Shown: piece by piece, positions 1,718 to 61,967 of the stretch
Numbering within the stretch: the first letter of the stretch is position 1
Layout: every line of letters starts with the position of its first letter
Assembly: GCA_032622095.1 (NCBI GenBank)
Contig: CP136062.1
Location: 161,010,875-161,074,874, forward strand
Reading direction: 5' to 3'
DNA from: Siphonodentalium dalli
Lineage: Eukaryota > Mollusca > Scaphopoda > Gadilida > Siphonodentaliidae
DNA length: 64,000 nt
The notes under the pieces: generated by a model
Seen by the model: only the letters and a program-made list of their open reading frames with translations
The model's database searches: none
What the model was told of the DNA's origin: nothing
Made by a program: the position numbers and the translations under genes

Positions 1718-1974
1718 ATAACGCTTTGAGTGCCAGGGGCCGATATTATCGGCCCTAAACCTACACAATAAGTCTGTTAAAGAATATAATAAAATATATT
1801 AAAATTGTAAAAAAATTGTAAAAAAAATAATAAAAAAATAATAATAATTGTTAGGCCAATGCATTCTCTTATATATGCGAGGCGACATATGGTCGACTCG
1901 CATATATAAGAGAATGCATTGGCACAGGGTATATGGGTTGATACAAAAATCGGACCTGGCACTCAAAGGGTTAA
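1718..1974. mobile_element. Family A TTAA MITE, copy 1
   Basis: The right end reads ...CACTCAAAGGG followed by TTAA (1971-1974); the left end is a decayed version, ATAACGCTTTGAGTGCC, at 1718. The centre (about 1855-1923) is the shared core palindrome with GGCCAATGCATTCTCTTATA arms. TTAA flanks and a CCCTTT start fit the piggyBac superfamily (inference). Confidence 0.8.
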
Positions 1975-2000
1975 TCAAAATGTGTCCATGCATACAATTT

Positions 2001-2445
2001 GCCTGAGTTTAGTGTGCTTCTCACTTGCAGAATGAGGTCCCCTGAGGGTGAATATAGTGATGCTATCCCACATAGCAGGCTAGCATAAATAAATTCACCC
2101 TCTGGGGACCTCATTCTACTTACGCCTCATCTTCTCTGAAAAGTTTCTTTATCATCAAAATTCTATAGAAACTTCTTCACATATAGATTCTATTTCTTAT
2201 TAGTTTATTTTCTCTATATATCCCTAAATTGGCAGACAAGTACACATTGCATAATCAATGTTCCCAATGTGTGCACAACACAATATTCACCATTTGGGAA
2301 CTTCAATCTGAGTCTATGTCTCCTGTAGCAGATGAGGCCATGCAGAATGAGGTTCCTCAGAGGGTGAATTTGCGGGATAGCATCACTAAATTCACCCTCT
2401 GGGGACCTCATTCTGCAAAAGACATGCACACTAAATTCAGACTTG
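2001..2445. mobile_element. Family D MITE, subtype II, copy 1
   Basis: The left end is GCCTGAGTTTAGTGTGC and the right end the complementary GCACACTAAATTCAGACTTG. Inside each end lie two opposed GAATGAGGTYCCC...GGGTGAATTTAG blocks. Full-length subtype II layout is preserved, with the AAGTTTCTTTATTATC-type interior. Open frames at 2214-2498 are by-products of the inverted repeats. Confidence 0.8.
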
Positions 2446-3035
2446 ATGCCAACTTAAAGTCTCTCCGAGATATTAATGGGACAAATTGGAATCTTTGAAA
2501 ACAATATGTCAACTAGGTCAAATTTCTGAAATTACTCGCGATTCACCACACACATTCCTAAACCTTATAAGCTGGTACTCAATCGATCAGGGTATATAGG
2601 CAGGTTCATAGCTTGCATTCGTTTCTGCCTGGTTAAATGGTGCCCTGTTAGCATTTATGCACAATAAGGGGGGGGGGGTCATCGTTTGTGAGTTTGTGAG
2701 GGGAGGGTAAAATATGGAAAAGTTAAGATGTTATAAAGACACTGGCTAGAGTCTCTGGGTTCTGCGACGGGTTCAGCAGCCTGTTGAGGATGGTATGGCG
2801 GGCACCAACTTATCACAATTAAGTGAACACTTACTCCATTGCACAATCCAATGAAGTTCCACTGAATTCCCATGCACAGAAATCAATACAGTATAGGACA
2901 AAGGGATGGGACTCCATCCACATGTAAATGAGACGTATTAGGCCCATGGCCGGGATAACACAGAAAGGAAAAATACTAGTGTCTTATTTTAACTTTAGTC
3001 CCGGGAGTCCAATGACCCAAATTTGACCAGGTAAT
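2446..3035. other. No gene seen
   Basis: Unassigned sequence with a short poly-G run near 2669-2678. Apart from GATTCACCACACACA (also near 4590) I see no repeat or coding signal. Confidence 0.4.
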
Positions 3036-3227
3036 TTAACCCTTTCATGATGGGAGCTGGTGCAGCATTAAAGACACTGTGCCAGTCCATTCTCTTTCTA
3101 TATGCGAGCCTCCCATAGGGAGCCTCGCACATATATTTAGAGAATGCACTGGCTTACAAGGTCAAGATAAATTTTGTTAGGCTAATGTATTCTCTTATAT
3201 ATGCAGCTCCTGTCATAAAAGGGTGAA
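3036..3227. mobile_element. Family C TTAA MITE, copy 1
   Basis: It starts TTAACCCTTTCATGATGGGA at 3036. It contains one decayed core palindrome (3092-3155) and part of a second (3172-3205), and ends TCATAAAAGGG followed by TGAA where TTAA is expected. The spacer TTACAAGGTCAAGATAAAT is diagnostic for family C. Confidence 0.75.
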
Positions 3228-3280
3228 TAAATTATGAGAAACTGCATGAATTCCCATGTGATTTTGATAGTTCTTTTATC

Positions 3281-3765
3281 ACAGGGTTCACACTAGCTGT
3301 GAAGAGACCATTACTACACAATCCTGTCATTACTTAATCCTTTCCAAGCTTAAAAACAGAGTGCAGTCCCCTCACTACTCTATGTCTGAATGCATTATTG
3401 AAGTGTTTTGTCAGTTCTCACATAAATCCATATAGTATACATGTAGGACAAAATGTTGGATCTGCATAATAGAAAGAAGTAATGTTCTCTGTCAATTTTT
3501 TTTTCCAGTACTCAAGTCCTAGGAGAAACATAAGCGGATAGCGCTAATGGTCTTGTGAATAATATCCAGGAAAAATTTAATCCCATAGATTTTTGCTCGT
3601 ACTTTTTAGCAATAGAAACTAAAGATAGAACAGGGTTCACACTAGCTGTGAAGAGACCATTACTACGGCATCGCGTCATTACTTAATCCTTTCCAAGCTG
3701 AAAAACAGAGTTCAGTCCCCTCATTACTCTATGTCTGAATGCATTATTGAAGTGTTTTGTCAGTT
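3281..3765 (+). repeat. Two direct copies of a ~136-bp repeat
   Basis: Copies at 3281-3416 and 3630-3765 begin ACAGGGTTCACACTAGCTGT and end GAAGTGTTTTGTCAGTT, nearly identical, separated by 213 bp of unrelated sequence. This is a local direct duplication; no termini typical of a transposon are visible. Confidence 0.8.
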
Positions 3766-3942
3766 ACAATTCATTCTGGCTTGACCTAGACAATTTTCAA
3801 ATGAATATGGACACTTCAGTTTCTCAGAATAATGCATGAATAGTACAAAAGTCTCAAATAAATAAATGTGACATTTCTTCACATTATGTGTGGTGCAGGC
3901 AGTGGTAAGTCCTACTTATGGGACTGAACTCTGTATGAAGCT

Positions 3943-4030
3943 TGAACCCTTTCATGACTGAAGCTGCGCTGGTGCAGCATTAAAGACCTTGTGCCAGTGC
4001 ATTCTCTTATATATGCGAGTCTCCCATACT
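3943..4030. mobile_element. Family C MITE fragment, copy 2 (left half)
   Basis: Begins with TGAACCCTTTCATGACTG (TTAA decayed to TGAA) and is colinear with family C until GCGAGTCTCCCATA, where similarity stops at the centre of the first core palindrome. A copy at 48045 stops at the same base. Confidence 0.75.
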
Positions 4031-4668
4031 ACTCAGCCACTACACCCATTTGACATGGCGACAAGTGAGCCCCCCCCCCCCCCCCACCTCAACAGTCATA
4101 GATTTCATGCCTGACACATCAGTTGGAAATTTCACATCAAAACATGTTGAAATTGTTCTCCTGAAATGGCCATCAGTTATAAGTGGGGTGTCATGCAGGT
4201 AGGAAATACTGCAAATGAAATTTCACACACTTGGGAATTTGGCCTGGTTCAAAGTGACCCAAGGCACTCCCAGTTTGTAATTGTGCAAAAATATTTATGT
4301 CTGTAAAAACATCACTATGTTTATTCAGTGTCGGAGGGGGGGGGGGGGGGGGGGATGTGGGGCCAGCAGCCCCTTTGTGTGTTCCCATGAGTGTTCTGGA
4401 TAGTAGACTTATACAAGTTATTCAGTTGAATGGTGTTGTCACAGTGAAAACACATTTATAAAGAGCGTACATCTGTATGGTGCTAAAATAGAGCCATGCA
4501 TGGTCAGCTTATTTTATTTTTTTATTTATTCAATAAAAAAATTTTAAATCAAAATTTTGTAAAACTTATAACCTCCACCATGGTACCCCGATTCACCACA
4601 CACAATTTGGTTGAAACTTGACGAGCTGTCTGGGAGAAAAATCCGGATGGACAGATTGACAGATCCCC
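4031..4668. other. No gene seen; C and G homopolymer runs
   Basis: Contains a run of about 17-20 C near 4070-4086 and a G run near 4337-4354. The short frame across the G run (4191-4388) is low-complexity and not a gene. An AT-rich stretch lies at 4500-4560. Confidence 0.4.
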
Positions 4669-4775
4669 GAGAGCTTTCCAATGAATGGTAACAAGCCATA
4701 TTTCCGACTAAATCCTGAAAAGTTACCCATAATTCTGCTGTGGTTAAGGAGTCGATTACTTAGAGCATTACTGTA
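4669..4775. mobile_element. Family E half-element, copy 1
   Basis: Only the right half of the E palindrome is present. It starts at the central GAGAGCTTTCC and runs through AATCCTGAAAAGTTACCCAT to the terminal GCATTACTG, followed by TA. The left half is absent. The frame MNGNKPYFRL found here recurs in every E copy and is not a gene. Confidence 0.85.
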
Positions 4776-7188: not shown

Positions 7189-7850
7189 ATACTTTAAATA
7201 CACTGTCGGGACATATGAGAGAGAAGTCGCTTCTCCCTGGGACAGATATAGGGAGAAGTGGCACATTTTAGGGAGAATATGTCTCCCATGTCGCCCTCTA
7301 GGCTGTTTCCTGATGTAATGTATTAACCCCATTTATAAAACCATTTCAGTCAGTAAGAACACTATTATAATCAATAAATATACTTTAAATACACTGTCGG
7401 GACATTTGAGAGAAAAGTCACAGTAATGCTCTAAATAATCGACTCCTTAACCACAGCAGAATTATGGGTAACTTTTCAGGATATAGTCGGAAATATGGCT
7501 TGTTGCCATTCATCGGAAAGCTCTCACAACAAGCCATATTTCCGACTAAATCCTGAAAAGTTACCCATAATTCTGCTGTGATTATGGAGTTGATTATTTA
7601 GGGCATTACTGTGACTTTTCTCTCATATGTCCCGACAGTGTATTTAAAGTATATTTATTGATTATAATAGTATTCTTACTGACTGAAATGGTTTTATAAA
7701 TGGGGTTAATACATTACATCAGGAAACAGCCTAGAGGGCGACATGGGAGACATATTCTCCCTAAAATGTGCCACTTCTCCCTATATCTGTCCCAGGGAGA
7801 AGTGACTTCTCTCTCATGTCCCGACAGTGTATTTAAAGTATATATATTTT
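7189..7850. repeat. 240-bp inverted repeat with an E element at its hinge
   Basis: The left arm, about 7189-7420, has its near-perfect reverse complement at about 7612-7846, both carrying CTGTCGGGACATATGAGAGA and GTCGCCCTCTAGGCTGTTTC. Between the arms lies the E element 7421-7611. The whole 660 bp is one nested palindrome. Confidence 0.85.
7421..7611. mobile_element. Family E MITE, complete, copy 3
   Basis: Full-length E palindrome from CAGTAATGCTCTAAATAATC to AGGGCATTACTG. Flanks are CA on the left and TG on the right rather than TA, as expected if the surrounding inverted repeat formed around it. Confidence 0.85.
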
Positions 7851-11516: not shown

Positions 11517-11668
11517 GTAATTGCCGATTATGCAATGTCTGATGGGATTTATTGACTAGGATGTTTCAATTATCTCGCCTCTATTGGCCCGCCTTGTTGA
11601 TGAGAAGCCCTGCATGGCCGTTAAAGATTTTGAGCGGTGACACGATAAAATTTTGCTGTTGATCGTGA
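11517..11668 (+). repeat. Duplicated segment, copy 1 (empty site)
   Basis: TGCCGATTATGCAATGTCTG through GTGACACGATAAAATTTTGC matches 13826-13929 joined to 14393-14445. Here the sequence reads GGCCGTTAAAGATTTT without interruption (TTAA at 11621-11624), whereas copy 2 carries a family A element at that TTAA. Confidence 0.85.
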
Positions 11669-13655
11669 ATGAGTGGATGGTTCAGTAAAGGAGTGGGAAG
11701 TTCAGTAAAGGAGTGGATGCATGGTTCAGTAAATGAGTGGGCAGTTCAGTAAAGGAGTGGGTGGTTCAGTAAATGAGTGGGTGGTTCAGTAAAGGAGTGG
11801 GTGGTTCACTAAATGTGTGGGTGGTTCACTAAATGTGTGAGTGGTTCACTAAATGTGTGGGTGGTTCAGTAATTGAGTGGGTGGTTCACTAAATGTGTGG
11901 GTGGTTCACTAATTGTGTGGGTGGTTCACTAAATGTGTGGGTGGTTCAGTAAAGGAGTGGGTGGTTCACTAAATGTGTGGGTGGTTCACTAAATGTGTGG
12001 GTGGTTCAGTAAAGGAGTGGGTGGTTCACTAAATGTGTGGGTGGTTCACTAAATGTGTGGGTGGTTCACTAAATGTGTGGGTGGTTCAGTAAATGTGTGG
12101 GTGGTTCACTAAATGTGTGGGTGGTTCCCTAAATGTGTGGGTGGTTCAGTAAAGGAGTGGGTGGTTCACTAAATGTGTGGGTGGTTCACTCAATGTGTGG
12201 GTGGTTCAGTAAAGGAGTGGGTGGTTCACTAAATGTGTGGGTGGTTCAGTAAATGTGTGGGTGGTTCAGTAAATGTGTGGGTGGTTCACTAAATGTGTGG
12301 GTGGTTCACTAAATGTGTGGGTGGTTCAGTAAATGAGTGGGTGGTTCACTAAATGTGTGGGTGGTTCACTAAATGTGTGGGTGGTTCAGTAAATGTGTGG
12401 GTGGTTCAGTAAATGAGTGGGTGGTTCAGTAAAGGAGTGGGTGCATGGTTCAGCAAATTAGTGGGTGGTTCACTAAATGAGTGGGTGGTTCAGTAAAGGA
12501 GTGGGTGGTTCACTAAATGTGTGGGTGGTTCAGTAAATGAGTGGGTGGTTCAGTAAAGAATTGGTTGGTTCAGTAAATATGTGGGTGGTTCACTAAATGT
12601 GTGGGTGGTTCACTAAATGTGTGGGTGGTTCAGTAAAGGAGTGGGTGGTTCACTAAATGTGTGGGTGGTTCAGTAAAGGAGTGGGTGGTTCACTAAATGT
12701 GTGGGCAGTTCACTAAATGTGTTCATTTAGTGAACCACCCACACATTTAGTGAACCACCCACACATTTAGTGAACCACCCACTCATTTACTGAACCACCC
12801 ACACATTTAGTGAACCACCCACACATTTAGTGAACCACCCACTCCTTTACTGAACCACCCACTCATTTACTGAACCACCCACTCCTTTACTGTGGGTGGT
12901 TCAGTAAAGGAGTGGGTGGTTAAGTAAATGAGTGGGTGGTTCACTAAATGTGTGGGTGGTTCACTAAATGTGTGGGTGGTTCAGTAAAGGAGTGGGTGGT
13001 TAAGTAAAGGAGTGGGTGGTTCAGTAAATGTGTGGGTGGTTCACTAAATGTGTGGGTGGTTCACTAAACGTGTGGGTGGTTCAGTAAATGAGTGGGTGGT
13101 TCACTAAATGTGTGGGTGGTTCAGTAAATGAGTGGGTGGTTAAGTAAAGGAGTGGGTGGTTCACTAAATGTGTGGGTGGTTCACTAAATGAGTGGGTGGT
13201 TCAGTAAAGGAGTGGGTGGTTCACTAAATGTGTGGGTGGTTCACTAAATGTGTGGGTGGTTAAGTAAATGAGTGGGTGGTTCACTTAATGTATGGGTGGT
13301 TCAGTAAAGGAGTGGGTGGTTCACTAAATGTGTGGGTGGTTCACTAAATGTGTGGGTGGTTAAGTAAAGGAGTGGGTGGTTCAGTAAATGTGTGGGTGGT
13401 TCAGTAAATGTGTGGGTGGTTAAGTGAAGGAGTGAGTGGTTCACTAAATGTGTGGGTGGTTCACTAAATGTGTGGGTGGTCCAGTAAAGGAGTGGGTGGT
13501 TAAGTAAAGGAGTGGGTGGTTCACTAAATGTGTGGGTGGTTCACTAAATGTGTGGGTGGTTCAGTAAATGTGTGGGTGGTTCAGTAAAGGAGTGGGTGGT
13601 TAAGTAAAGGAGTGGGTGCATGGTCCAGTAAATGAGGTGGGTGGTTCACTAAATG
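11669..13655. repeat. 20-bp minisatellite, ~99 units
   Basis: The unit is GGTGGTTCACTAAATGTGTG with variants CAGTAAAGGAGTG, CAGTAAATGAGTG and, only after the inverted block, TAAGTAAAGGAGTG. The array spans nearly 2 kb. No coding role is evident. Confidence 0.95.
12722..12892 (-). repeat. Inverted block inside the 20-bp minisatellite
   Basis: About 8.5 units run in reverse orientation (CATTTAGTGAACCACCCACA...). Both junctions form hairpins with the flanking direct units, e.g. GGTTCACTAAATG...CATTTAGTGAACC at 12722. Confidence 0.9.
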
Positions 13656-13820: not shown

Positions 13821-14445
13821 GGAATGCCGATTATGCAATGTCTGATGGGGAAATATTGACTATGGTGTTTCAATTTTCTCGTCTTTATTGGCTGCGCAGT
13901 GTCAATGAGAAGCCGTGCCTGGCTGTTAACCCTTTCAGTGCCAGGTCCGATTTTTGTATCAACCCATATACCCTGTGCCAATGCATTCTCTTATATATGC
14001 GAGTCGACCATAGGTCGCCTCGCATATATAAGAGAATGCATTGGCCTAACAAATTTTCATCATTTGTTATTATTTTTTACAATTTTAATATTTTTTTCTT
14101 ATTTTCTTTAACAGACTTATTTTGTAGGTTTAGTGCCAGGGAATCTTACGTTTTTTATGGGCATCAAAATTATTACTATGAATACTTGGTGATAGTTTTG
14201 AGTTATAACATGCCCCTAAGGTTTTAAGCAGTTTGTTTTTAAATTCGCTATAGCATGCTTAAGCATACCCAAACAAAATTCAACCCAAAAAAAAAAAGAT
14301 CGAAAATAAAAATAAAAATAAAAATTTAGGACCGATTTTACAGACCATAAATTAGGGCCGATGAGATCGGCCCCTGGCACTGAAAGGGTTAAAGACTTTA
14401 TTTGAGTGGTGACTCAATAACATTTTGCTGTTGATAAAGGAATGG
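13821..14445 (+). repeat. Duplicated segment, copy 2 (filled site)
   Basis: Matches 11517-11668 on both sides of an inserted family A element. It ends with a degenerate single minisatellite-like unit (GGAATGGCGGTTCAGTTG), which may be the unexpanded form of the neighbouring array. Confidence 0.8.
13926..14392. mobile_element. Family A TTAA MITE, copy 2 (longest)
   Basis: TTAA at 13926-13929 and 14389-14392 bounds a 459-bp element beginning CCCTTTCAGTGCCAGG and ending CCTGGCACTGAAAGGG. The core palindrome is at about 13976-14045, near the left end. AT-rich sequence fills the rest. The frames at 13838-14227 run through the palindrome and are not genes. Confidence 0.92.
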
Positions 14446-19336: not shown

Positions 19337-19576
19337 TTAACCCTTTGAGTGCCAGGGGCCGATCTCATCGGCCCTAAACCTACAAAATAAGTCTGTTAAA
19401 GAATATAATAATAAATTATTAAAATTGTAAAATATTGTAAAAAAAAAAAATGTTAGGCCAATGCATTCTCTTATATATGCGAGGCGACCTATGGTCGACT
19501 CACATATATAAGAGAATGCATTGGCACAGGGTATATGGGTTGATACAAAAATCGGACCTGGCACTCAAAGGGTTAA
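19337..19576. mobile_element. Family A TTAA MITE, copy 3
   Basis: TTAA at 19337-19340 and 19573-19576; ends CCCTTTGAGTGCCAGG and CCTGGCACTCAAAGGG. The core palindrome is at about 19453-19524. Length without TTAA is 232 bp. Confidence 0.92.
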
Positions 19577-23431: not shown

Positions 23432-24065
23432 ATATCCCCTAATTTGCAGAAGATAAAATGCATAATCGAGATGACTGACGGGTGAACATCACCAACTTCT
23501 ACTGGGGAACTTCATTCTTATCCTAGGTCATCCATAACAGTTAACCCTTTACCCAACAGAAGGGCCCTGTGCCAATGCATTCTCTTATATATGCGAGTCG
23601 ACCATAGGTCGCCTCGCATATATAAGAGAATGCATTGGCTTAACACATTACAAATTATAAAATTGTTAAAGAATGTAAGAAAAAATGGTAAAAAGTGTTA
23701 AAAAAAGATTTTTTTTAGGCCAATGCATTCTCTTATATATGCGAGGCGACCTATGGTCGACTCGCATATATAAGAGAATGCATTGGCACAGGGCATAACT
23801 GTAACCATCACAATGTGGTCAATGAGCCGGTTCCAATGATATCCATATTTGTATGGGTTTATTGAGACAGACCCAAGATAATTTTGGCTGTTGCAGCTTT
23901 ATTTGGCCGTTTTTGGCCGGTTTGTTGGGTAAAGGGTTAAGGCCTAAGCAGAATGAGGTTACCAGAGGGTTAATTTGGTGATGCTAGCCCACTGTGTGTG
24001 ATAGCGTCACTATATTCACCATCTGGGGACCTCATTCTGCAAATGACAGACACACTTTTTCAAAC
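23432..24065. mobile_element. Family D MITE, copy 9, right part
   Basis: ATATCCCCTAATTTGCAGAA to CATAACAG, then the B element at 23541-23940, then GGCCTAAGCAGAATGAGGTT to the degraded terminus CTTTTTCAAACCTTG. With 20955-21130 it makes one subtype I element. Confidence 0.85.
23541..23940. mobile_element. Family B TTAA MITE, copy 1
   Basis: TTAA at 23541-23544 and 23937-23940. The 13-bp perfect terminal repeat is CCCTTTACCCAAC / GTTGGGTAAAGGG. Two core palindromes lie at about 23570-23639 and 23718-23787. It is inserted in family D where other copies read CAGTTGAGGCC. In the opposite orientation relative to the other two B copies. Confidence 0.93.
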
Positions 24066-25931: not shown

Positions 25932-26275
25932 TCAAGCCTGAGTTTAGTGTGCCTGTCATTTGCAGAATGAGGTCCCGAGAGTGTGAATAGCGGCTAGCAT
26001 CACTAAATTCACCTTTTGCTATGGGAGACATAGACTCAGATTGAAGTTCCCAAATGTTGAATATTGTGATGTACATCCATTGGGAACCTCGATTATGCAA
26101 TGTATCATCTGCCAAATTGGGGATATAGAGAAACTAAACTAAAAAAAAATCTATGAAGATTTTTCTATAGAAGTTTGATAATAAAGAAACTGTCCAGAGA
26201 AGATGAGGCCTATTATAAAGCAGAATGAGCCCCCCAGAGGGTGAATTTAGTGATGCTAGCCCACTGTTTGCAGAC
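25932..26275. mobile_element. Family D MITE, subtype II, copy 11
   Basis: Left terminus CAAGCCTGAGTTTAGTGTGC intact, subtype II interior complete, and right end broken after GATGCTAGCCCACTG. Confidence 0.8.
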
Positions 26276-37997: not shown

Positions 37998-38397
37998 TTA
38001 ACCCTTTACCCAACTAACCGGCCAAAACCGGCCAAAACCGGCCAAATAAAGCTTCAACAGCCTAAAATATCTTCGGTCTGTCTCAATAAAACCATACAAA
38101 TATGGATATCACTGGAACCGGCTCATTGACCACATTGTGATGGTTACAGTTATGCCCTGTGCCAATGCATTCTCTTATATATGCGAGTCGACCATAGGTC
38201 GCCTCGCATATATAAGAGAATGCATTGGCCTAAAAAAAATATTTTTTTACCATTTTTTCTTACATTCTTTAACAATTTTATAATTTTTAATGTGTTAAGC
38301 CAATGCATTCTCTTATATATGCGAGGCTACCTATGGTCGACTCGCATTTATAAGAGAATGCATTGGCACAGGGCCCTTCTGTTGGGTAAAGGGTTAA
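37998..38397. mobile_element. Family B TTAA MITE, copy 2
   Basis: TTAA at 37998-38001 and 38394-38397, ends CCCTTTACCCAAC / GTTGGGTAAAGGG. The left arm carries three tandem CCGGCCAAAA units. Two core palindromes lie at about 38160-38230 and 38302-38376. Confidence 0.93.
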
Positions 38398-40255: not shown

Positions 40256-40616
40256 TTCCCATAGGGAGCCTCGCATACATTGCTTACAAAGCGAAGGTAA
40301 ATATTGTTAGGCCAATGCATTCTCTTATAAATGCGAGGCTGCCTATAGGAGACTCACATACATTAATGCCCTAACTAGTCAACTCCTTAACCACAGCAGA
40401 ATTATGGGTAATTTTTCAGGATTTAGTCGCTGAGAGCTTTCCGATGAATGGCAACAAGCCATATTTCCGACTAAATCATGAAAAATTACCCATAATTCTG
40501 CTGTGGTTAAGGAGTCGATTATTTAGGACATTACCGGTACTGCATGTATATAATAGAATGCATTGTCACAGGGTTTTCACAAAATTTCAGGAAGCTCCAG
40601 TCATGGAAGGGTTAAT
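40256..40616. mobile_element. Family C MITE, copy 4, split by E
   Basis: Begins at a core palindrome centre (CCCATAGGGAGCCTCGCATA), so the left quarter is missing. It contains the diagnostic CGAAGGTAAATATTGTTAGG, is interrupted by E at 40363-40535, and ends CAGTCATGGAAGGG TTAA (40613-40616). Confidence 0.8.
40363..40535. mobile_element. Family E MITE, copy 9, inside family C
   Basis: Nearly complete: starts TTAATGCCCTAACTAGTCAA, centre GAGAGCTTTCCGATGAATGG, ends TTTAGGACATTACC. Part of the left arm (AAATATGG..CATCGG) is deleted. Its insertion splits the second C core palindrome. Confidence 0.82.
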
Positions 40617-43949: not shown

Positions 43950-46905
43950 GATTAATTGAAGTTCAATAACGCTGGATTCCATACACACTTTCCCCAATAT
44001 CTTGTGTTAATAGTATGAGACTGTTGATAGTGGGACAACCTCTCACTTTAATTAATGACAATATCTCTGGCTCCCCCAAGAAATCTCATACATCTTATTT
44101 AAGCTAGTTGATATGAATTGAAGTTCAATAATGCTGGATTCCATACACACTTTCCCTGATTGATATCTTGTGTTAATAATTGGGAGGCTGTTGATAGTCG
44201 GACACTCTCCCACTTTAATGACGATGTTTCTAGCTCCCCCAAGAAATCTCATACATTCAGCTAGTTGATATGAATTGAAGTTCAATAACGCTGGATTCCA
44301 TACACACTTTCCCCGATATCTTGTGTTAATAGTACGAGACTGTTGATAATGGGACACTCTCTCACTTTAATTAATGACGATATCTCTAGCTCCCCCAAGA
44401 AATCTCATACATTCAGCTAGTTGATATGAAATGAAATTCAATAACGCTGGATTCCATACACACTTTCCCCGATATCTTGTGTTAATAGTAGTACGAGACT
44501 TTTGATAATCAGACACTCTCTCACTTTAATGTCGATATCTCTAGCTTCCCCAAGAAATCTCATACATTCAGCTAGTTGATATGAATTGAAGTTCAATAAC
44601 GCTGGATTACATACACACTTTCCCTGATATCTTGTGTTGATAGTAGTATGAGACTTTTGATAATCGGACACTCTCTCACTGTAATGACGATATCTCTAGC
44701 TCCCCCAAGAAATCTCATACATACAGCTAGTTGATATGAATTGAAGTTTAATAACGCTGGATTCCATACACACTTTCCCTGATTGATATCTTGTGTTAAT
44801 AATTGGGAGGCTGTTGATAGTCGGACACTCTCCCACTTTAATGACGATGTTTCTAGCTCCCCCAAGAAATCTCATACATACAGCTAGTTGATATGAATTG
44901 AAATTCAATAACACTGGATTCCATACACACTTTCCCCGATATCTTGTGTTAATAGTAGTACGAGACTTTTGATAGTCGGACAACCTCTCACTTTAATTAA
45001 TGACAATATCTCTGGCTCCCCCAAGAAATCTCATACATCTTAATTAATCTAGTTGATATGAATTGAAGTTCAATAATGCTGGATTCCATACACACTTTCC
45101 CTGATTGATATCTTGTGTTAATAATTGGGAGGCTGTTGATAGTCGGACACTCTCCCACTTTAATGACGATGTTTCTAGCTCCCCCAAGAAATCTCATACA
45201 TTCAGCTAGTTGATATGAATTGAAGTTCAATAACGCTGGATTCCATACACACTTTCCCCGATATCTTGTGTTAATAGTACGAGACTGTTGATAATGGGAC
45301 ACTCTCTCACTTTAATTAATGACGATATCTCTAGCTCCCCCAAGAAATCTCATACATTCAGCTAGTTGATATGAATTGAAATTCAATAACGCTGGATTCA
45401 ATACACACTTTCCCCGATATCTTGTGTTAATAGTAGTACGAGACTTTTGATAATCGGACACTCTCTCACTTTAATGACGATATCTCTAGCTTCCCCAAGA
45501 AATCTCATACATTCAGCTAGTTGATATGAATTGAAGTTCAATAACGCTGGATTCCATACACACTTTCCCTGATATCTTGTGTTGATAGTAGTATGAGACT
45601 TTTGATAATCGGACACTCTCTCACTTTAATGACGATATCTCTAGCTCCCCCAAGAAATCTCATACATACAGCTAGTTGATATGAATTGAAGTTCAATAAC
45701 GCTGGATTCCATACACACTTTCCCTGATTTATATCTTGTGTTAATAATTGGGAGGCTGTTGATAGTCGGACACTCTCCCACTTTAATGACGATGTTTCTA
45801 GCTCCCCCAAGAAATCTCATACATACAGCTACATGTAGTTGATATGAATTGAAGTTCAATAATGCTGGATTCCATACACACTTTCCCTGATTGATATCTT
45901 GTGTTAATAATTGGGAGGCTGTTGATAGTCGGACACTCTCCCACTTTAATGACGATGTTTCTAGCTCCCCCAAGAAATCTCATACATACAGCTAGTTGAT
46001 ATGAATTGAAGTTCAATAACGCTGGATTCCATACACACTTTCCCTGATTGATATCTTTTGTTAATAATAGTACGAGACTGTTGATATTCGGACACTCTCT
46101 CACTTTAATGACGATGTTTCTAGCTCCCCCAAGAAATCTCATACATACAGCTACATGTAGTTGATATGAATTGAAGTTCAATAATGCTGGATTCCATACA
46201 CGCTTTCCCTGATTGATATCTTGTGTTAATAATTGGGAGGCTGTTGATAGTCGGACACTCTCCCACTTTAATGACGATGTTTCTAGCTCCCCCAAGAAAT
46301 CTCATACATACAGCTAGTTGATATGAATTGAAGTTCAATAACGCTGGATTCCATACACACTTTCCCTGATTGATATCTTTTGTTAATAATAGTACGAGAC
46401 TGTTGATATTCGGACACTCTCTCACTTTAATGACGATGTTTCTAGCTCTCCCAAGAAATCTCATACATACAGCTACATGTAGTTGATATGAATTGAAGTT
46501 CAATAATGCTGGATTCCATACACACTTTCCCTGATTGATATCTTGTGTTAATAATTGGGAGGCTGTTGATAGTCGGACACTCTCCCACTTTAATGACGAT
46601 ATTTCTAGCTCCCCCAAGAAATCTCATACATACAGCTAGTTGATAAGGGTTGAAGTTCAATAACGCTGGTATTCCATACACACTTTCCCTGATATCTTGT
46701 GTTGATAGTAGTATGAGACTTTTGATAATCGGACACTCTCTCACTTTAATGACAATATCTCTAGCTCCCCCAAGAAATCTCATACATCTAGCTAGTTGAT
46801 ATGAATTGAAGTTCAATAACGCTGGATTCCACGCCCATATACTCCGATGTTTAGTGTTAATAATTGGAGGTTGTTGATAGTGGGACACTCTCTCACTTTA
46901 ATTAC
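43950..46905. repeat. ~157-bp satellite array, ~18-19 monomers
   Basis: The monomer contains GAAGTTCAATAACGCTGGAT, TCCATACACACTTTCC, YGATATCTTGTGTTAATA and CTAGCTCCCCCAAGAAATCT. Successive GCTGGATT positions are about 154-160 bp apart. Segments 44052-44865 and 44997-45810 correspond at a constant 945-bp offset (six monomers); 45798-46295 and 46120-46617 correspond at 322 bp (two monomers). Many minus-strand frames here are repeats of one another and shift frame between monomers, so I do not call genes. Confidence 0.95.
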
Positions 46906-47700
46906 GCGCCACACAATTCCACCTAATGACAGACCACTCGAGTTTTATTTCGCCAGAACAATCACACCTTGGAACTCGAATAGAGAACCAGCATTGATCG
47001 CGCGTAATAATCTTTTTACGCTGTTTACTTATGTCAGTTAATTTGTGAGATTTTCGTTATTTGACATCCGAGTTCTGTTTACTCTGTGAGTTTCTCGTTA
47101 TTGGGTTTGTTTGCTTGTCTCAAATCCCAGCCCACTGACGTAATTTAGTTCTGAAACTAATCTAGCTTATTGATGCTAAGGATCATGATTTCGTTTCAGT
47201 TCAACTTACATCTGACCTGTCGTCAATGGAATACTCCTTATTTATTCTGCTACATCATCATTATGTTCCTAATTTAATATTACATTTTCATTATAGGGCC
47301 AAAAACAAAAAGCCGCTTTGTTTCCAAAACCCTGCCTGGCTGACATTTTCTTGACTGCCTCATTTTTTTCTTCACTTTCATCCGGAAGGCTAGTTAATAT
47401 AATTAAGTTACCTGTTAGAGTTCCAGTGTGAATATTTATCTTTTTTCCCAATCCCAAAAGCAAAAATAAGTCAGTTATTAAGCTCAGCGTTGCAATATTG
47501 CTGAGTGATTAAATTCAAGGGTCAGCATGTTTTTATCCAATGCTTGGCTCATTTTCGATACACATTGATCTACCATATCCCATGGGACTGTGACTACACT
47601 ATTATATAGCTTATAAGGCTGAAAGGTTTTTAAAAAAAAATTGTAAAAAAAAAAAGAAAAAAAAAAGGCCTGTCTGGAAAATTATCCCAATGTTACCGGA
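46906..47700. other. No confirmed gene
   Basis: A 64-codon minus-strand frame (47269-47463) looks somewhat protein-like (SLPDESEEKNEAVKKMSARQ) but I do not recognise it. AT-rich with A runs near 47630-47668. Confidence 0.35.
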
Positions 47701-48131: not shown

Positions 48132-48374
48132 TCAGTTGTTTTTGTTTTGTTTTGTTTTTCTTGCAGCATTCAAAACCCTCTCCTTGTGCATTCTTTTATA
48201 ATGCGAGTCTTTTGTCACAAGGATGACTGCACTAAAGTTGGTCTTTGGTCACAAATTGATCTTATAGTAATAGAAATGGCTGTTTTATCGATGAGCCCAT
48301 GTAAATGAACTTATAATTATGATGAATGTCAGTTATGTAGAAAACACTATATATGACAATGGCCCCTGTCGCAT

Positions 48375-48644
48375 GACATTACCAAGCCTTGAAATAGTGT
48401 GTCTGTCATTTGCAGAATGACGTCCCCAGAGGGTGAATTTAGTGATGCTACCCCGCATAGCGGGCTAGCATCACCAAATTCACCCTCTGGGGACATCATT
48501 CTGCTTACACCTCAGCAGAATGAGGTTCCCAGAGGATGAATTTGGTGATGCTAGCCCACTATGCGGGGTAACATCACTAAATTCACCCTCTGGGGACCTC
48601 ATTCTGCAAATGACAGACACACTATTTCAAGGCTTGGACATTAC
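48375..48644. mobile_element. Family D MITE, subtype I, copy 14, with perfect 8-bp duplication
   Basis: Element 48383-48636 with 9-bp ends CAAGCCTTG / CAAGGCTTG and about 30-bp TIR. GACATTAC flanks it at 48375-48382 and 48637-48644. This compact 254-bp form lacks the subtype I interior. It is the best evidence that family D is hAT-like. Confidence 0.93.
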
Positions 48645-48742: not shown

Positions 48743-48922
48743 TAACCCTTTGAGTGCCAGGGGCCGATCTCATCGACCCTAAACCTACAAAATAAGTATG
48801 TTAAAGAATATAAGAATAAATTATATTCTCTTATATATGCGAGGCGACCTATATATAAGAGAATGCATTGGCACAGGGTATATGGGTTGATACAAAAATC
48901 GACCTGGCACTCAAAGGGTTAA
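48743..48922. mobile_element. Family A TTAA MITE, copy 4 (shortest)
   Basis: TTAA at 48743-48746 and 48919-48922; 172 bp between. The core palindrome has lost its central part. Confidence 0.9.
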
Positions 48923-49451: not shown

Positions 49452-49709
49452 TTAACCCTTTCATGACGGGAGCTGTGCTGGTGCAGCATTAAAGATCCTG
49501 TGCCAGTGCAATCTCTTATAAATGCGAGTCTCCAATAGGAAGCCTCACATGTATAAGAGAATGCACTGGCTTACATAGTCAAGGTATATATTGTTAGGCC
49601 AATGTATTCTCTTATATATGAGAGTCTCCCTATGGGAGTCTCGCATATATAAGAGAATGAATTAGCACAGGTTGCAAAATTTCAGGAAGCTCCAGTTATG
49701 AAGGGTTCA
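49452..49709. mobile_element. Family C TTAA MITE, copy 6
   Basis: Starts TTAACCCTTTCATGACGGGA, with two core palindromes joined by TTACATAGTCAAGGTATATA, and ends CAGTTATGAAGGG TTCA. Internal CACAGGTTGCAAAATTTCAGG shows the asymmetric right arm of family C. Confidence 0.88.
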
Positions 49710-52405: not shown

Positions 52406-52406
52406 G

Positions 52407-53482: not shown

Positions 53483-53886
53483 TTAACCCTTTACCCAACA
53501 AAACGGCAAAAAACGCCCAAATAAAGCTTCAACAGCCTAAAATATCTTGGGTCTGTTTCAATAAAACCGTACAAATATGGATATCATTGGAACCGGTTCA
53601 TTGACCACATTGTGATGGTTACAGTTATGCCCTGTGCCAATGCATTCTCTTATATATGCGAGTCGACCATAGGTCGCCTCGCATATATAAGAGAATGCAT
53701 TGGCCTAAAAAAAATCTTTTTTTAACACTTTTTACCATTTTTTCTTACATTCTTTGTTAAACAATTTTATAATTTTTAATGTGTTAAGCCAATGCATTCT
53801 CTTATATATGCGAGGCGACCTATGGTCGACTCGCATATATAAGAGAATGCATTGGCACAGGGCCGTTCTGTTGGGTAAAGGGTTAA
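53483..53886. mobile_element. Family B TTAA MITE, copy 3
   Basis: TTAA at 53483-53486 and 53883-53886; ends CCCTTTACCCAAC / GTTGGGTAAAGGG; two core palindromes at about 53634-53705 and 53788-53861. It immediately precedes the left end of a family D copy. Confidence 0.93.
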
Positions 53887-54206: not shown

Positions 54207-55016
54207 ATGTCAGATAAGAAACGTGACCGCAATTCGGAGGGAGAGACACCCAAGCCATCCGAAAAAAATCCCAAAACTAGCGCGGGTGCAATGGCCGACG
54301 GCGACGGTGTAGTCAACCAGCTGAAAGCGTTGACCGATGTCATCAATGAAGTAAAAAATGGACAAGATGGAATGCGAAAGGCGATTGACAAAAAATTAGA
54401 CAAGATGAGGGACGAGTGGAAAAAGACTTTTGATGAAAAATTTAAAGTACTTAAAGAGGACATAACGTTGGAAATCGGAGTGGAACGTGCTAGGCTCGAT
54501 ACAGTTATTCAACAAGTTGGAGAGTTAACCAACCGTATCGCGCACGCTGATCGACAACAATCTGACCCAGTTACGCCGCCGTTACGCCAATCAGCTGATG
54601 ACAGCGAGCTCGCTGTTATTATAACAAATGTGCCGGAGAGACAGGATGAAGACCTCGACGAGGTGATACAGGGAATGTTAACTACCATGAAGCTAGAGAA
54701 TCAAGAGATCCGTGTATTATCCGCGAGGAGGCTGAATAAAAGGGTGCTGAACAAACCAGCGTTGTTAAAGGTAACTTTCGAAACTGTGCCACAAAAAGTG
54801 AAGGTTCTTCGGAACAAACAAAAACTACGCGATGATGACAGATATAAAGAATGTTACATCCGCAGCAGTAAGCCACACGTTGAGAGGCTGGTCGAGACGA
54901 ATGCCAGGACACTCCTCGCACAGTTACCGAATGGCCATGAATTCTTTGTGTCGGGAAGTGGGCGAATCGTTCGGAAGTCGGACCGCCATCACCGAGGGGC
55001 CAACAACTCGAGATAG
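54207..55016 (+). CDS. LINE ORF1 protein, coiled coil plus RRM-like domain
   Basis: 269 residues from ATG at 54207 (the first in-frame methionine, MSDKKRDRNS). ORF1 proteins bind the element's RNA and act as chaperones in the ribonucleoprotein. Residues 1-30 are charged and polar. Residues about 38-112 form a likely coiled coil (MRDEWKKTFDEKFKVLKEDI). Residues about 134-255 resemble the RRM/C-terminal fold of L1-like ORF1 proteins (AVIITNVPERQDEDLDEVI, CYIRSSKPHVERLVE, SGSGRIVRKS). The frame is intact. It ends at TAG 55014-55016, and the downstream polymerase frame continues in the same phase. GC content looks higher than in the downstream ORF2. The overlapping minus-strand and +1 frames are shadows. 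Confidence 0.88.
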   Translation: MSDKKRDRNSEGETPKPSEKNPKTSAGAMADGDGVVNQLKALTDVINEVKNGQDGMRKAIDKKLDKMRDEWKKTFDEKFKVLKEDITLEIGVERARLDTVIQQVGELTNRIAHADRQQSDPVTPPLRQSADDSELAVIITNVPERQDEDLDEVIQGMLTTMKLENQEIRVLSARRLNKRVLNKPALLKVTFETVPQKVKVLRNKQKLRDDDRYKECYIRSSKPHVERLVETNARTLLAQLPNGHEFFVSGSGRIVRKSDRHHRGANNSR

Positions 55017-57182
55017 GACAAGCCGACATGTGTCTTTCCGAGGAAGGCAGTAAAAATTGGGCATATAAACATTAATGGTTGGACTTTGAAAAGTAAAACA
55101 TTGAAAACAAAATTAATAAATGCAGTAAATTGTGATATATTATGTATTTCTGAATCTCACTTGAAACAAGGAGAAAATATTGATTTATTGAATTATTTAT
55201 GGATTGGAAATAACAGATCAAGTACACATGTATTAGCCCCTAAGGCTTCTGGTGGTGTGGGAATGCTAATTAGAGAAGAATTATTACAATATTTTGATGT
55301 TTCCATATTAGACAGAGAAATTGATGGCATTTTATCAGTAAAGTTTAAATCAATTAGTTTAAATGAAGAATTCATATTATGTACATGTTATCTTCCCCCA
55401 GAAAGGTCTGTGTGGGGCAGAAATCCAGATAGATTTTTCTCACATATTTTGACAAGCGCTTATTTACATTGTGATACCCCAATGATTGTATGTGGTGATA
55501 TGAATGCACGCATAGGTAAATTGTCAGATGTAAATATGGAACTCGACTGTGTACCCCAAATTCATAATATTGATAACACAGTAAACCAGCATGGAAAATC
55601 GTTTCTTGAATTTTTAAATGAAACTAAGTTATGCTGTTTAAATGGTCGTTTGAATAATGAAAACAATAATTATACCTCGATTAGTACCAAGGGTTCAGCT
55701 GTTGTCGATTATATTTGTGTGCCACATGACGTATTTGATCGCTTCAATAATTTCTGGGTCAAAACACAATCGGATTTAATTACCGATAATTCGTTAGAAA
55801 GTATGCTAGGTGAAGGGTGTAAACCACCGGACCATAGTTTTGTTTTGGTGGAGTATATTGTAAATACAGTCCATGTACATGGCAGCACACCAACTGATCA
55901 CAAATATACACCAACTAAACTTAATAAACCATTACCAGCTGATTTTTTAGCCTCATCTGAAACTTTATTAAATTTGATACATGAAATCGAGTCTGCAATA
56001 GAATCCCAAATAACTGTAGACAATATTTATGATAAATTTACAAAACACATTTTTGAAAATATGTCAGACCAATTACCAAGTTTCAAAAATGGAAGGCGTT
56101 CACATAAAAAATTTAAATTTCACAAACCATATTGGAATGATGACCTTACTAAATTATGGCAAACAATGAGTAACTTGGAAAATGCATTCCTAAAATATAA
56201 AACTAAGTCAAGAGACAAAAATTTAGCTTTTCTAAAATTTAAAGAGGCTAGGCAAATTTTTAATCGTAAATTACGCACTTATGAAAGACAATATAAACGT
56301 AATTTTGCACTCGATATGGAACTAAACTGTAATAATCCTAAATCTTTCTGGGACACGATTAAGAAACTTGGACCCAAAAAAGAAAATGGTATCCCAAATG
56401 AAGTAATTGGACCTGATGGTTCTGTCATAACAGATACAAAATTAATTACAGAAAACTGGAGGTGTGCTTTTAAAACTTTATACAATCCGGAATTTGGAAA
56501 TGAACTTTTTGATAATAATTTCAGAGAAAATATCATAAAAGAAAAGGTATTTACAGAAAATAAATTTTTAGACCCATTATATGTACACAATAATGTTCTA
56601 AATCGGACTATTCAAATAGAAGAAATTGATCGTGCAATAAATAAAGTAAAGACTGGAAAGGCGTTTGGCATAGATAAAATACCTGGTGAAACCCTAAAAT
56701 GTGAATCTGTTAAACCTGTATTGCTTAGTTTATTTAATTTCATTTTTGATACTGGCATTATACCATCTGTTTGGAGACAATCTATAATATGTCCCATACC
56801 AAAAGATAAATCACTAGACCAGAGAATTCCGCTTAATTATCGTGGCATCTCATTACTACCAACAAGCAGCAAATTATATAATAGTGTTTTAAATAATAGA
56901 CTTGTTGAACATCTAGACCATAATAATATACTAGTTGATGAACAAAATGGTTTCAGATCAAAGCGGTCATGCATTGATAATATTTTCATACTAACAAGCA
57001 TAATGAAAGGAAAAAAAGATATATTTACTACGTTCATAGATTTCAAAAAAGCTTTCGATTGTATCGACAGAGACATGTTACTCTTCAAACTTCTTAAATG
57101 TGGGATAGACGGAAACATGTACCAATCAATTCGAAGTATGTATAGCAGTACACATGCACGTATCAGAATAAATGGAGATGTG

Positions 57183-57185
57183 TAG
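57183..57185 (+). other. In-frame TAG within the RT domain
   Basis: Lies between RIRINGDV and EPFDCQFGVKQGD, both normal RT sequence in the same phase. A point mutation is the simplest explanation. Confidence 0.9.
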
Positions 57186-57842
57186 GAGCCTTTTGATTGT
57201 CAATTTGGTGTAAAACAAGGAGATAATTTATCATCTACACTCTTTAATGTATTTGTAAATGATCTGGCATCTGAAATAAAAACCATGAATGTTGGTGTAA
57301 AATTAAATGACATTAATGTACCCATTTTAATGTATGCTGATGACATAGTGTTACTATCTGAAAATGAAAACAATATGCAAAATATGCTCGAAGTAGTTCA
57401 CAAATGGTGTAGAAAGTGGAGAATGGTGATAAACACAAATAAAACAAAAACAATGCATCTTAGAAATGTCAGAACCAAACGAACAAGTTTTCCTTTTAAA
57501 CTTGGCACGCAACAACTGAATATCGTAGAAGAATATAAATTCTTGGGTATTATTATTCATGAACATAAACAATTTGACACAACAGCTGAGGTCTTGGCCA
57601 AATCTGCAAGCAGAGCTTTAGGTGCTATAATTTCAAAAATTCACCCATATAAAGATATAGGTTTCAAAACATTTAAAAAATTATATATAACATGTGTATC
57701 TCCAATTTTAGATTATGCATCAGGCGTATGGGGTTCAAAGAATTTTTCATGTCTAGATAGTGTACAGAATAAGGCTTTTAGATATTTTTTGGGAGTCCAT
57801 CGCTATTGTCCATTATTAGCAGTAAATGGTGATATTGGTATA

Positions 57843-57845
57843 TAA
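57843..57845 (+). other. In-frame TAA after the RT domain
   Basis: Lies between AVNGDIGI and SCKIRRVLNHIRLWN in the same phase; the frame resumes to the zinc-like motif. Confidence 0.9.
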
Positions 57846-58701
57846 TCTTGTAAGATTCGTCGAGTCCTGAACCATATCCGTCTATGGAACCATATAATAG
57901 AATTACCAGATGACAGACTAATTAAAAAAGTGTTTAACTGGGACCTAGCTCATGTTTCAAATGGTTGGTGTTCCTTTATGAATGATACTCTATCTAACTT
58001 ACAATTGTCAACAGTATTTCAAAATTTAGAAACATGTAATATAGACGATTTTGAAACGAAGCTTAAAAATGATGAATCAGATAAATGGAAAAACAGCTTA
58101 AATTTTGTTCCTAAATTAAGAACATATAAACTTTTCAAAAGGAATTATGAAACTGAATCATATGTATTGATGAATATGGACCGTGCTCATAGATCTATAT
58201 TTGCTCAGTTTCGATGTGGAATTCTTCCTTTGAGAGTGGAAACTGGTCGTTTTAGAAATGAAAAGCTAAATCTCAGAAAATGCACATTATGTGCCTCACA
58301 TGAAGTCGAAGATGAAATGCACTTCCTATTAAAATGCCCTTTCTATAACGAAAAGCGAGAACTTTTACTCGACTCTCTCCCTTTAAATGTAACCATGATG
58401 ATAGAACAAAACCAGTTAGAATCAGCTTTTATTGAAATAATCAACAAACACACACGTCAGTGTGCTAATTTTATCCAAGATGCCTATCTGAAAAGAAAGC
58501 AGTATATATATAAATAAACATCATAGCATATAATAGCGTAAATTGACAGGCGTCTTGCTATACAATGCAAAAATTAATTAACTCTTATTTTCAGGGTGAC
58601 ATATAGGCCCAATAGGGCCGGGTGCGCGATGTAAACTAATGTCTAAAAATTGTTTGTAATTTAACATGCACATGTCACGTAAATAAAAGATATTACTACT
58701 A

Positions 58702-58927
58702 TATTCTGCAAATTAGGGGATATAGAAACTTCCCAGAAGGAAAAAAGTTACTAAAATTAATGTTAATTTGAGACTATAGATACTAACCAGAAGATGAGGA
58801 CTAAGCAGAATGAGGTCACCAGAGGGTGAATTTGGTGATGTTAGCTTACTGTGTGGGATAGCGCCACTAAATTAACCCTCTGGGGACCTCATTCTGCAAA
58901 TGACAGACACACTATTTTCAGGCTTGA
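58702..58927. mobile_element. Family D MITE, copy 16, right part
   Basis: TATTCTGCAAATTAGGGGAT to the terminus CACACTATTTTCAGGCTTG. With 53885-54094 it makes one subtype I element interrupted by the LINE. Confidence 0.88.
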
Positions 58928-58976
58928 CTATTGAATATGTGATGAATGAATAATAATATTACACCGAACTAACCCA

Positions 58977-59243
58977 TTAACACTTTCATGACTGGAGCTT
59001 CCTGAAATATTGTGAAAACCCTGTGCCAATGCATTCTCTTATATATGCGAGTCTCCCATAGGGATCCTCACATATATAAGAGAATGCATTGGCCTAACAA
59101 TATTTACTTTGATCTTGTAATTAAGCCAGTGCAATCTCTTAGATATGCGAGGCTCCCTATGGGAGACTCGCATATATATGAGAATGCACTGGAACAGGCT
59201 CTTTAATGCTGCACCAGTACAGCTCCCATCATGACAGTGTTAA
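58977..59243. mobile_element. Family C TTAA MITE, copy 8 (inverted)
   Basis: TTAA at 58977-58980 and 59240-59243. Starts with the GCTTCCTGAAATATTGTGAA arm, then two complete core palindromes, and ends GCACCAGTACAGCTCCCATC. Confidence 0.9.
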
Positions 59244-60331: not shown

Positions 60332-60376
60332 ATATCCCCTAATTTGCAAAAGATAAAATGCATAATCGAGGTTAAC
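60332..60376. mobile_element. Family D fragment
   Basis: ATATCCCCTAATTTGCAAAA to ATAATCGAGG, the same internal D point at which the insertion at 23431 ends. Confidence 0.7.
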
Positions 60377-60449
60377 CTCCTTCTCTAGAGATGTCAACAA
60401 CACCAGCTGAAGTTGAGTTCAAGTCACTGTGACGATCATGATTATGTAG

Positions 60450-60606
60450 AGAATAATCACTTGATTGAACTAGTGATGAGAAATAATTCATGAGAGGCAG
60501 GGACATTGTACACACACGAGAGCGCATTGCGTTCAAGTGTTTTAAAAAATAGTCCCTGCCTTGAATGAATTATTTAAAGTCACCAGTTTAATCAAGTGAT
60601 TATTCT
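60450..60606. mobile_element. 157-bp palindromic MITE
   Basis: Arms of about 56 bp: AGAATAATCACTTGATTGAA...AGGCAGGGAC and GTCCCTGCCTTGAATGAATT...GTGATTATTCT, with a 45-bp spacer. No target duplication is obvious. Confidence 0.82.
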
Positions 60607-60840
60607 GTTTATTGTATTCCACTATAAACATCTGATTTACCAGAAATCCGAATAACACCACCATTAAACCCATGATGTATACATTTCAATAGCGCGTATG
60701 TATATATAATGCTCCAGTTAGTGACATAATTAACTTGTGAAGTTATCATTTATAATCACTCGAGAAATCAAGGTAAATCACACATATTGTAACAAAACGC
60801 TGTAACCACTGGGTGACCAATTCTACACAACACACTCAAG

Positions 60841-61192
60841 TGAACTTAGATTTACAATCGCTTCATGGAACACTTAAGGTGGTCTGAACTTAGATTAACA
60901 ATCACTTCACGGAAGAGTTAACATTGTCTGATAAGTTAGTCAGACAGACCAATTTAATTATGTAAAAATCTTGTCAAATTTCTCTCCTCGAGAGCCCAGC
61001 CCATGTTATCATGAAAATTCCCCAAACAACTTGACGTGATTTCGCTCCACACAGTACTTATTATATACTTATCGTGGTTTGATAAATTAGTCAGACGGAC
61101 TCATCTATTTATGTAAAACACTCATCAAATTTCTCTCTTCGAGAGCCCAGCCCAGTTCTCAGGAAATTCCCAAAACAACTCAATGTGATTTG
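60841..61192 (+). repeat. Direct duplications, ~45 bp and ~147 bp apart
   Basis: GAACTTAGATTWACAATC occurs at about 60843 and 60888. A longer unit containing TAGTCAGACRGAC, ATCAAATTTCTCTCTTCGAG and GAGCCCAGCCCA occurs at about 60934 and 61081. Confidence 0.8.
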
Positions 61193-61488
61193 TTAGTGTC
61201 TACAATGACCACGTACGTCATTAAACGTGACTATTTTTATACCCTTGCCCGGCCAGCAGCTGATTCGTTGGTCGTTTCTTGAGCCGTTTGTCTCATGTCA
61301 TGGATCTATAATATTATTATATTATTATTATATAATTTTTATATCTATATACATGCTTTATACTTTTATCGCATGTTTTAAACATTGGTATAATGTAAGA
61401 ATATTCTGCCGTTCTACTGTAAAAATATTAGTTGACCGCGGCGTAGATAGCCGAAGTATCTCTGTTTGGGTTGGCAGTCGAGTATTTG

Positions 61489-61619
61489 CAGTAATTCTCT
61501 AATTAATCGACCCCTTAACCACAGCAGAATTATGGGTAACTTTTCAGGATTTAGTCGGAAATATCGCTTGTTGCCATTCATCGGGAAGCTCTCTGATGAA
61601 TGGCAACAAGCCATATTTC
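61489..61619. mobile_element. Family E MITE, copy 13, right-truncated
   Basis: Starts CAGTAATTCTCTAATTAATC; the centre is GAAGCTCTCTGATGAATGG; it stops after AAGCCATATTTCT. Flanked by TG rather than TA on the left. Confidence 0.83.
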
Positions 61620-61706
61620 TTTTATCACTAACTCGTTCACTGTTGCAAAAGGTGTAGTTTTCATAGGTTTTGTAAATCTGTTTATTCTTGCAGCCCTATC
61701 TCATCC

Positions 61707-61967
61707 TTAACCCTTTCATGACGGAGCTGCACTGGTGCATCATTAAAGATCCTGTGCCAGTGCATTCTCTTATATATGCGAGTCTCCCATAGGAGCCTCG
61801 CATATATAAGAGACTGCAATGGCTTTATACAAGGTCAAGGTAAATATAGCTAGGTTAATGTATTCTCTTATGTATGCGAGGCTCCCTATATACATACATA
61901 TATAAGAGAATGCATTGGCGCAGGGTTTTCTAAAAATTTCAGAAAACTCCCATCACGAAAGGGTTAC
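61707..61967. mobile_element. Family C TTAA MITE, copy 9
   Basis: TTAA at 61707-61710; right TTAC at 61964-61967. Two core palindromes, spacer ACAAGGTCAAGGTAAATATA, and the right arm CAGGGTTTTCTAAAAATTTC. Confidence 0.88.

Follow-up and report, generated by a model that had tools for sequence, protein, structure and literature searches.

The study of coral CMITEs (PMC2872659) gives a TTAA target duplication and inverted-repeat tips reading CC[C/T]T as the criteria for miniature inverted-repeat transposable elements (MITEs) of the piggyBac type. CMITEs, found in Acropora millepora and A. palmata, are such TTAA MITEs and combine a conserved interior with differing terminal inverted repeats (TIRs). 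They are described as about 100 bp long with a single 75-nt interior, the function and origin of which are unsettled; the authors propose that it aids transposition (PMC2872659). Here, we describe miniature elements of TTAA type in a 64-kb stretch of the genome of the scaphopod Siphonodentalium dalli (contig CP136062.1, assembly GCA_032622095.1, positions 161,010,875 to 161,074,874; hereafter "the window"). They form three families, A, B and C, with unrelated ends and a common palindromic core of 69 nt. With a probability of roughly 0.55, they represent three MITE families that inherited an internal module and have differing or replaced ends, as in the coral CMITEs.

Like CMITEs, the S. dalli elements have tips reading CCCTTT or similar, an interior that is more conserved between families than the TIRs, and tandem arrays (PMC2872659). 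Unlike CMITEs, with which they are compared by description only, two-ended elements measure 173–459 nt and carry a 69-nt palindrome in one to four copies, in inverted arrangement. Neither "palindrom" nor "hairpin" occurs in the text of the coral paper. We read the present elements, from their sequence organisation, as the same kind as the coral CMITEs in a new, palindromic form. The initial annotation of this DNA had considered the layout unfamiliar, but a conserved interior between differing TIRs is what the coral elements display (PMC2872659). The coral paper was the sole close precedent that emerged from the literature searched for MITEs, piggyBac and these sequences; this search did not extend to subscription journals and Repbase, so a prior description is possible.

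Other systems share single features with these elements. In piggyBac, the same 19-bp palindrome occurs at both ends, at unequal tip distances, and is bound by the C-terminal domains of the transposase (PMC11707139). Subterminal palindromic sites are thus common to piggyBac, piggyBat and the present elements, and unequal tip distances to piggyBac and family B. However, the piggyBac and piggyBat sites are about 19 bp and 12–14 bp long, respectively, whereas the core described here has 69 nt and no transposase linked to it. KolobokP elements, which are rich in bivalves, also have TTAA target duplications and a composite architecture (PMC9587614). They possess long direct terminal repeats, whereas the repeats found here are inverted. 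A Kolobok origin was ruled out, since Kolobok termini read 5'-RR and YY-3' (PMC9587614) and the consensus tips of the present elements read 5'-CC...GG-3'. Finally, quasi-palindrome template-switch mutation, reported for yeast genes and loci, makes the arms of imperfect inverted repeats identical (PMC3820800, PMC8604942). Such arm identity is what double-sided changes in the core lineages would require. In contrast to the yeast cases in these sources, the palindromes here are transposon interiors, and they retain the orientation of the loop and one T-C mismatch.

Exact core patterns had no match in prokaryote and viral contigs, and patterns of the A and C ends had none in viral contigs; absence from these collections says little for a eukaryote, because they hold prokaryote and viral records. 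In the literature text that could be searched, core strings were not found, and end strings gave only chance-like matches in unrelated medical papers.

The palindromic core

The core is a near-perfect palindrome of the form GCC...GGC, with two 33-nt arms around a central ATA and one mismatched pair in the consensus. Three copies folded as DNA were far more stable than their shuffles (z of -15.6, -10.5 and -10.6); the copy in element A2, with z -15.6, forms 32 pairs. The initial annotation had seen an arm, a middle of 10–16 bases and the complement of the arm. The inverted arms are indeed present, but the middle is itself palindromic and not a separate unit, which makes the whole one 69-nt hairpin. 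The block common to the families extends beyond this hairpin and takes in CCTGTG outside the core and CTAA(CA) inside.

Cores were collected by iterating, within the window, a profile derived from ten copies, at a threshold of E<0.001. This search yielded 29 separate sites, close to the approximately 28 counted initially, and each was found on both strands, as a palindrome predicts. All 29 lie inside 16 miniature elements of TTAA type: four in the four elements of family A, six in the three of family B and 19 in the nine of family C. Window scans gave 24 matches to CCTGTGCCARTGCATTCTCT at up to three mismatches (0 expected) and 47 matches to TTATATATGCGAG at up to two mismatches (1.8 expected). 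Below the threshold, a profile match at 48186 (E 0.045) is a decayed core fragment in C5, and one at 40547 (E 0.27) is the outer part of the split C4 core; those at 26252, 30673 and 2092 are probably chance matches.

One core per A element and two per B element agree with the earlier count, while its range of two to four in family C becomes one to four, because C2 and C5 each keep half a core at this threshold. B elements and most C elements hold two cores in opposite orientation on either side of an AT-rich spacer, with CCTGTG always toward the nearer tip. In A elements, the spacer continues from the single core to the other end. Family C has two different ends (E1 and E2) and two core sub-types. 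The distance from core start to tip is 26 and 149 nt in B, 44 and 46 nt in C8, and 47 nt in A2. The 16 elements are as follows.

A1, 1722–1970, minus strand: 249 nt; core 1855–1923; flanks ATAA/TTAA.
A2, 13930–14388, plus strand: 459 nt, long form; core 13977–14045; TTAA on both sides; CCCTTTCAGTGCC common to both tips.
A3, 19341–19572, minus strand: 232 nt; core 19457–19525; TTAA on both sides.
A4, 48746–48918, minus strand: 173 nt; core 48824–48872, shortened by a 13-nt deletion that ends at the hairpin tip; TTAA on both sides.
B1, 23545–23936, plus strand: 392 nt; opposed cores 23571–23639 and 23719–23787; TTAA on both sides.
B2, 38002–38393, minus strand: 392 nt; cores 38161–38229 and 38299–38367; TTAA on both sides.
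B3, 53487–53882, minus strand: 396 nt; cores 53636–53704 and 53788–53856; TTAA on both sides.
C1, 3040–3223, minus strand: 184 nt; cores 3081–3153 and 3181–3210 (partial); flanks TTAA/TGAA.
C2, 3947–4028, plus strand: E2 end and half a core, ending at the hairpin tip after CCCATA; one core.
C3, 38401–38797, plus strand: about 397 nt; four cores, of which two are damaged, arranged as two core-spacer-core units in tandem; adjoins B2.
C4, 40257–40611, plus strand: starts at the hairpin tip; two cores, 40257–40280 and 40311–40364, the second split by a nested insertion at about 40370–40540 with its remainder at 40547; E1 end at 40611.
C5, 48048–48128, plus strand: E2 end and half a core, truncated at the hairpin tip after CCCATA; remains of a second, decayed half core near 48186; one core at threshold.
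C6, 49456–49706, minus strand: 251 nt; cores 49502–49570 and 49598–49666; flanks TTAA/TCAA.
C7, 51077–51407, plus strand: 331 nt; three cores, the first sharing the 13-nt tip deletion of A4; spacers in inverted orientation on either side of the middle core; TTAA on both sides.
C8, 58981–59239, plus strand: 259 nt; cores 59025–59093 and 59125–59193; TTAA on both sides.
C9, 61711–61963, minus strand: 253 nt; cores 61756–61823 and 61857–61919; flanks TTAA/TTAC.

Element A2 is about 200 nt longer than the other A elements, and both of its tips read CAGTGCC for GAGTGCC, which suggests a separate sub-lineage whose two tips changed together. The insertion nested in the C4 core (40370–40540) is a foldback element, and similar sequence occurs near 4660–4770.

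Class of the elements and relationship of their ends

The 13 two-ended elements are flanked by TTAA on both sides in eight cases and have one flank off by a single base in four; the flanks of C3 are ambiguous, as B2 adjoins it. The tip motif CC[C/T]T is present at seven of the eight A tips, at all six B tips and at most C tips, and has decayed at both tips of C8 and at the right tips of C6 and C3. Judged by TTAA flanks and CC[C/T]T tips, the elements are most likely non-coding TTAA MITEs of the piggyBac type. No Pfam family matched within the several elements covered by 69 stop-to-stop frames of at least 75 aa. Across the window frames scanned with Pfam (8 + 69 frames, four of them common to both sets; shorter frames and those of tandem arrays were outside the scan), no transposase domain appeared, and the only matches were reverse transcriptase and endonuclease, plus a below-cutoff DUF5388. 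A structured RNA gene was also rejected as an identity for the elements: the window contains no Rfam family at gathering score (0 matches) and no transfer RNA.

The three-family division with unrelated ends and one palindromic core, proposed from the first inspection, is upheld by the end comparisons and the core consensuses. The two ends within a family match one another in all three comparisons, with none of 500 shuffles reaching the score. Between families, all 12 comparisons are at chance level, and the lowest is matched by 31 of 500 shuffles. This combination argues that A, B and C are not one continuous family with gradually diverged arms, the finding that the initial annotation had said would refute its proposal. 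No element mixes ends: both tips clearly belong to one family in 12 of the 13 two-ended elements, and the right tip of C3 is decayed. Among copies of one family, the end sequences diverge by just a few per cent.

All five end types (A, B left, B right, C-E1 and C-E2) meet the core at CCTGTG. The base before this motif is C in four of them and mixed in C-E2. In nine comparisons of A and B spacers, which involve low-complexity sequence, between 0 and 122 of 1000 shuffles attained the observed score; homology of these spacers is possible, but marginal.

Comparison between families shows much stronger conservation in the core than in the ends. The A and B core consensuses are identical (69/69), and that of C agrees at 64 of 69 positions, while the ends are unrelated. 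Within families, the proportion of singleton changes varies. In family B, the core has fewer than the ends (2/414 versus 14/525, p 0.010). In family A, the counts are 2/255 and 1/187 (p 1.0), and in family C they are 23/402 and 20/255 (p 0.33), the latter from C8, C6 and C9 only, three of the six two-ended C elements, as C1, C3 and C7 were excluded from this comparison. A p-value of 0.0006 for the family A core against all other sequence was disregarded, because the alignment misplaces the extra segment of A2 and thereby inflates the class "spacer/endA2" (0.185). The idea that the core is more conserved than the arms thus holds between families and within B, but not within A and C. Since the within-family divergence is mixed, most inserted copies appear to decay evenly, and the conservation would belong to spreading lineages and not to resident copies.

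Changes in the palindrome and breakage at its tip

The palindrome seems to stay self-matching as the families diverge. Among the core consensuses of A, B, C-E1 and C-E2, four pairs differ, and three of these (5-65, 30-40 and 31-39) changed on both arms with pairing kept. Of the 53 copy-specific changes within these classes, in contrast, 52 affect one arm and one affects both (3/4 versus 1/53, Fisher p 0.0005). A column covariation test on 19 cores (14 of them distinct) gave 90.9% paired cells versus 88.5% in shuffles, 12 double-changed cells versus 5.1, and a covariation score of 0.087 versus 0.050; each value beats 499 or 500 of 500 shuffles, an excess that relatedness alone can yield. The unpaired T28-C42 is kept across A, B and C, with the outer T in 20 of 22 and the inner C in 24 of 26 scorable copies. 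This retained mismatch marks orientation and is an argument that the cores descend from one ancestor in a single orientation. Selection for an RNA hairpin left no sign in the copies: among 54 non-Watson-Crick cells of 661, G-T (9) is not above A-C (16).

Damage to the cores is concentrated at the hairpin tip. A hand-made list, drawn up partly by eye (C3a, C4L and C5b from sequence reading), contains 21 breakpoints in 11 damaged cores; it omits small insertions in C1L, a one-base gap in the first core of C9 and the nested insertion in C4. Eleven of the 21 fall in the eight tip positions out of 68, where 2.5 are expected, with a p-value of 7e-6 that is only indicative, because the breakpoints were chosen after the sequences had been seen. 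Ten of the 11 damaged cores have a breakpoint in the tip zone, and in the remaining one, the first core of C4, it lies one position outside. C7b can be read in two orientations, with a break near the tip in both. A4 and the first core of C7, from different families, carry the same 13-nt deletion, and the sequence CCCATA after which C2 and C5 both end is where C4 begins. An alternative for C2, C5 and C4, in which a different transposon inserted at the hairpin tip, was considered and is less favoured. Breakage at the tip with loss is preferred, though not proven, because no partner halves lie nearby among the 29 sites. By sequence reading, the extra cores of C3 and C7 resemble a tandem and an inverted duplication, respectively, of core plus spacer. 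This pattern of breakpoints and duplications is what hairpin breakage or template switching would leave. Together with the compensation between lineages, the tip breakpoints thus suggest that the palindrome is kept while the elements are mobile and decays afterwards.

Origin of the module

In the inherited-module reading favoured here, the module would consist of CCTGTG, the 69-nt palindrome, a spacer, an inverted palindrome and CACAGG; A would keep one palindrome, and the terminal 20–150 nt would differ. Each family may move by cut and paste through a transposase that recognises the tips of that family, and, as ends were exchanged for others, the module would have been inherited or transferred from one lineage to another. 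In spreading lineages, self-complementarity could be kept either by a transposase or host factor that binds the palindrome or by template switching during replication that rewrites one arm from the other. After insertion, copies would degenerate as any other sequence does, and breaks would favour the hairpin tip, whereby cores would be multiplied or removed. Several observations count against this reading. In families A and C, core divergence is no lower than that of the ends, and the whole module is perhaps not shared, because the homology of the A and B spacers is marginal. The piggyBac ancestry is drawn from TTAA and the CCC tips, because the window holds neither a transposase nor an autonomous parent. 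Regarding compensation, pair 8-62 in C-E1 (five A to three G) changed on one arm only, and pairs 30-40 and 31-39 are adjacent and may reflect one event. The column test also found no excess of pairs changed on both sides (4 versus 3.5 in shuffles, 250/500) or of further pair types (8 versus 9.0, 458/500).

The palindrome, or the double-palindrome module with CCTGTG...CACAGG termini, could instead be, or have been, mobile in its own right and have entered three TTAA MITE families that are unrelated to one another. Five end sequences stop at the same base, CCTGTG, which is the sharp boundary expected of fixed termini, and the core number varies from one to four. We nevertheless consider this unlikely. 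No core was found outside a TTAA element, no direct duplication is visible by eye around the module in the B or C flanks, and the extra cores of C3 and C7 are explained by the duplications of core plus spacer. Nor does the window offer a core-less A or B element as an empty site. The independently moving hairpin suggested in the initial annotation has therefore not found support, given 29 of 29 cores within TTAA elements and no target-site duplication seen around the core or the double-core module. An equally doubtful proposal is that the core is a palindrome under selection for binding by a transposase or host factor; the three families would stay together because a single transposase requires it, and the ends would have diverged freely beyond the tip motif. 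A binding role is plausible, because piggyBac ends carry transposase-bound palindromes at unequal tip distances (PMC11707139), and the core start here has tip distances of 26 and 149 nt in B, 44 and 46 nt in C8, and 47 nt in A2. CCTGTG points toward the tip, complementarity is kept between lineages, and the authors of the CMITE study suggest the same role (PMC2872659). But the 69-bp core greatly exceeds a 19-bp site in length, A elements carry a single core, and arm correction by template switching would give equal complementarity without selection. In our analysis, a binding role and an inherited module are compatible.

Descent of A, B and C from one old family with simply diverged arms, in which the core has no special status, is disfavoured as highly improbable. 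CCCTTT and TTAA are common to the tips, but the cores of A and B are identical, whereas their ends are unrelated and unequal in length and differ by only a few per cent within families. A more far-reaching idea, that the 69-nt palindrome is a hitch-hiking module moving between unrelated piggyBac-type MITE families through breakage and replication template switching at its own hairpin tip, is rather improbable. If true, one process would match the arms, multiply the copies and truncate the elements, and the module would be DNA that spreads as a hairpin inside transposons without ends of its own.

Other features of the window

Further repeats and one retrotransposon-like block were noted.

7215–7817: inverted repeat of 291 nt whose arms are 97% complementary and separated by 21 nt; a large foldback with no relation to the cores.
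11668–13655: tandem repeat of a 20-nt unit in about 98 copies, strongly GC-skewed; inverted block at 12723–12892.
43954–46906: 155-nt unit repeated in tandem about 19 times, alternatively nine copies of 322 nt.
48412–48607: two adjoining hairpin-like units of another repeat (GCAGAATGA..., 103-nt period); strings like ...CTCATTCTG, comparable to this repeat, recur elsewhere in the window.
54207–58514: block resembling a non-LTR (long terminal repeat) retrotransposon, with an N-terminal frame (the below-cutoff DUF5388) followed by endonuclease and reverse transcriptase frames; in-frame stops.

Implications

With 16 elements in 64 kb, the families may be abundant genome-wide. They provide a second, better-resolved case of the puzzle posed by the coral CMITEs, that of a MITE interior outlasting its ends. 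A long palindrome present in several copies per element permits asking whether spreading lineages have matched arms, and whether hairpin breakage lets MITEs gain, lose and exchange parts.

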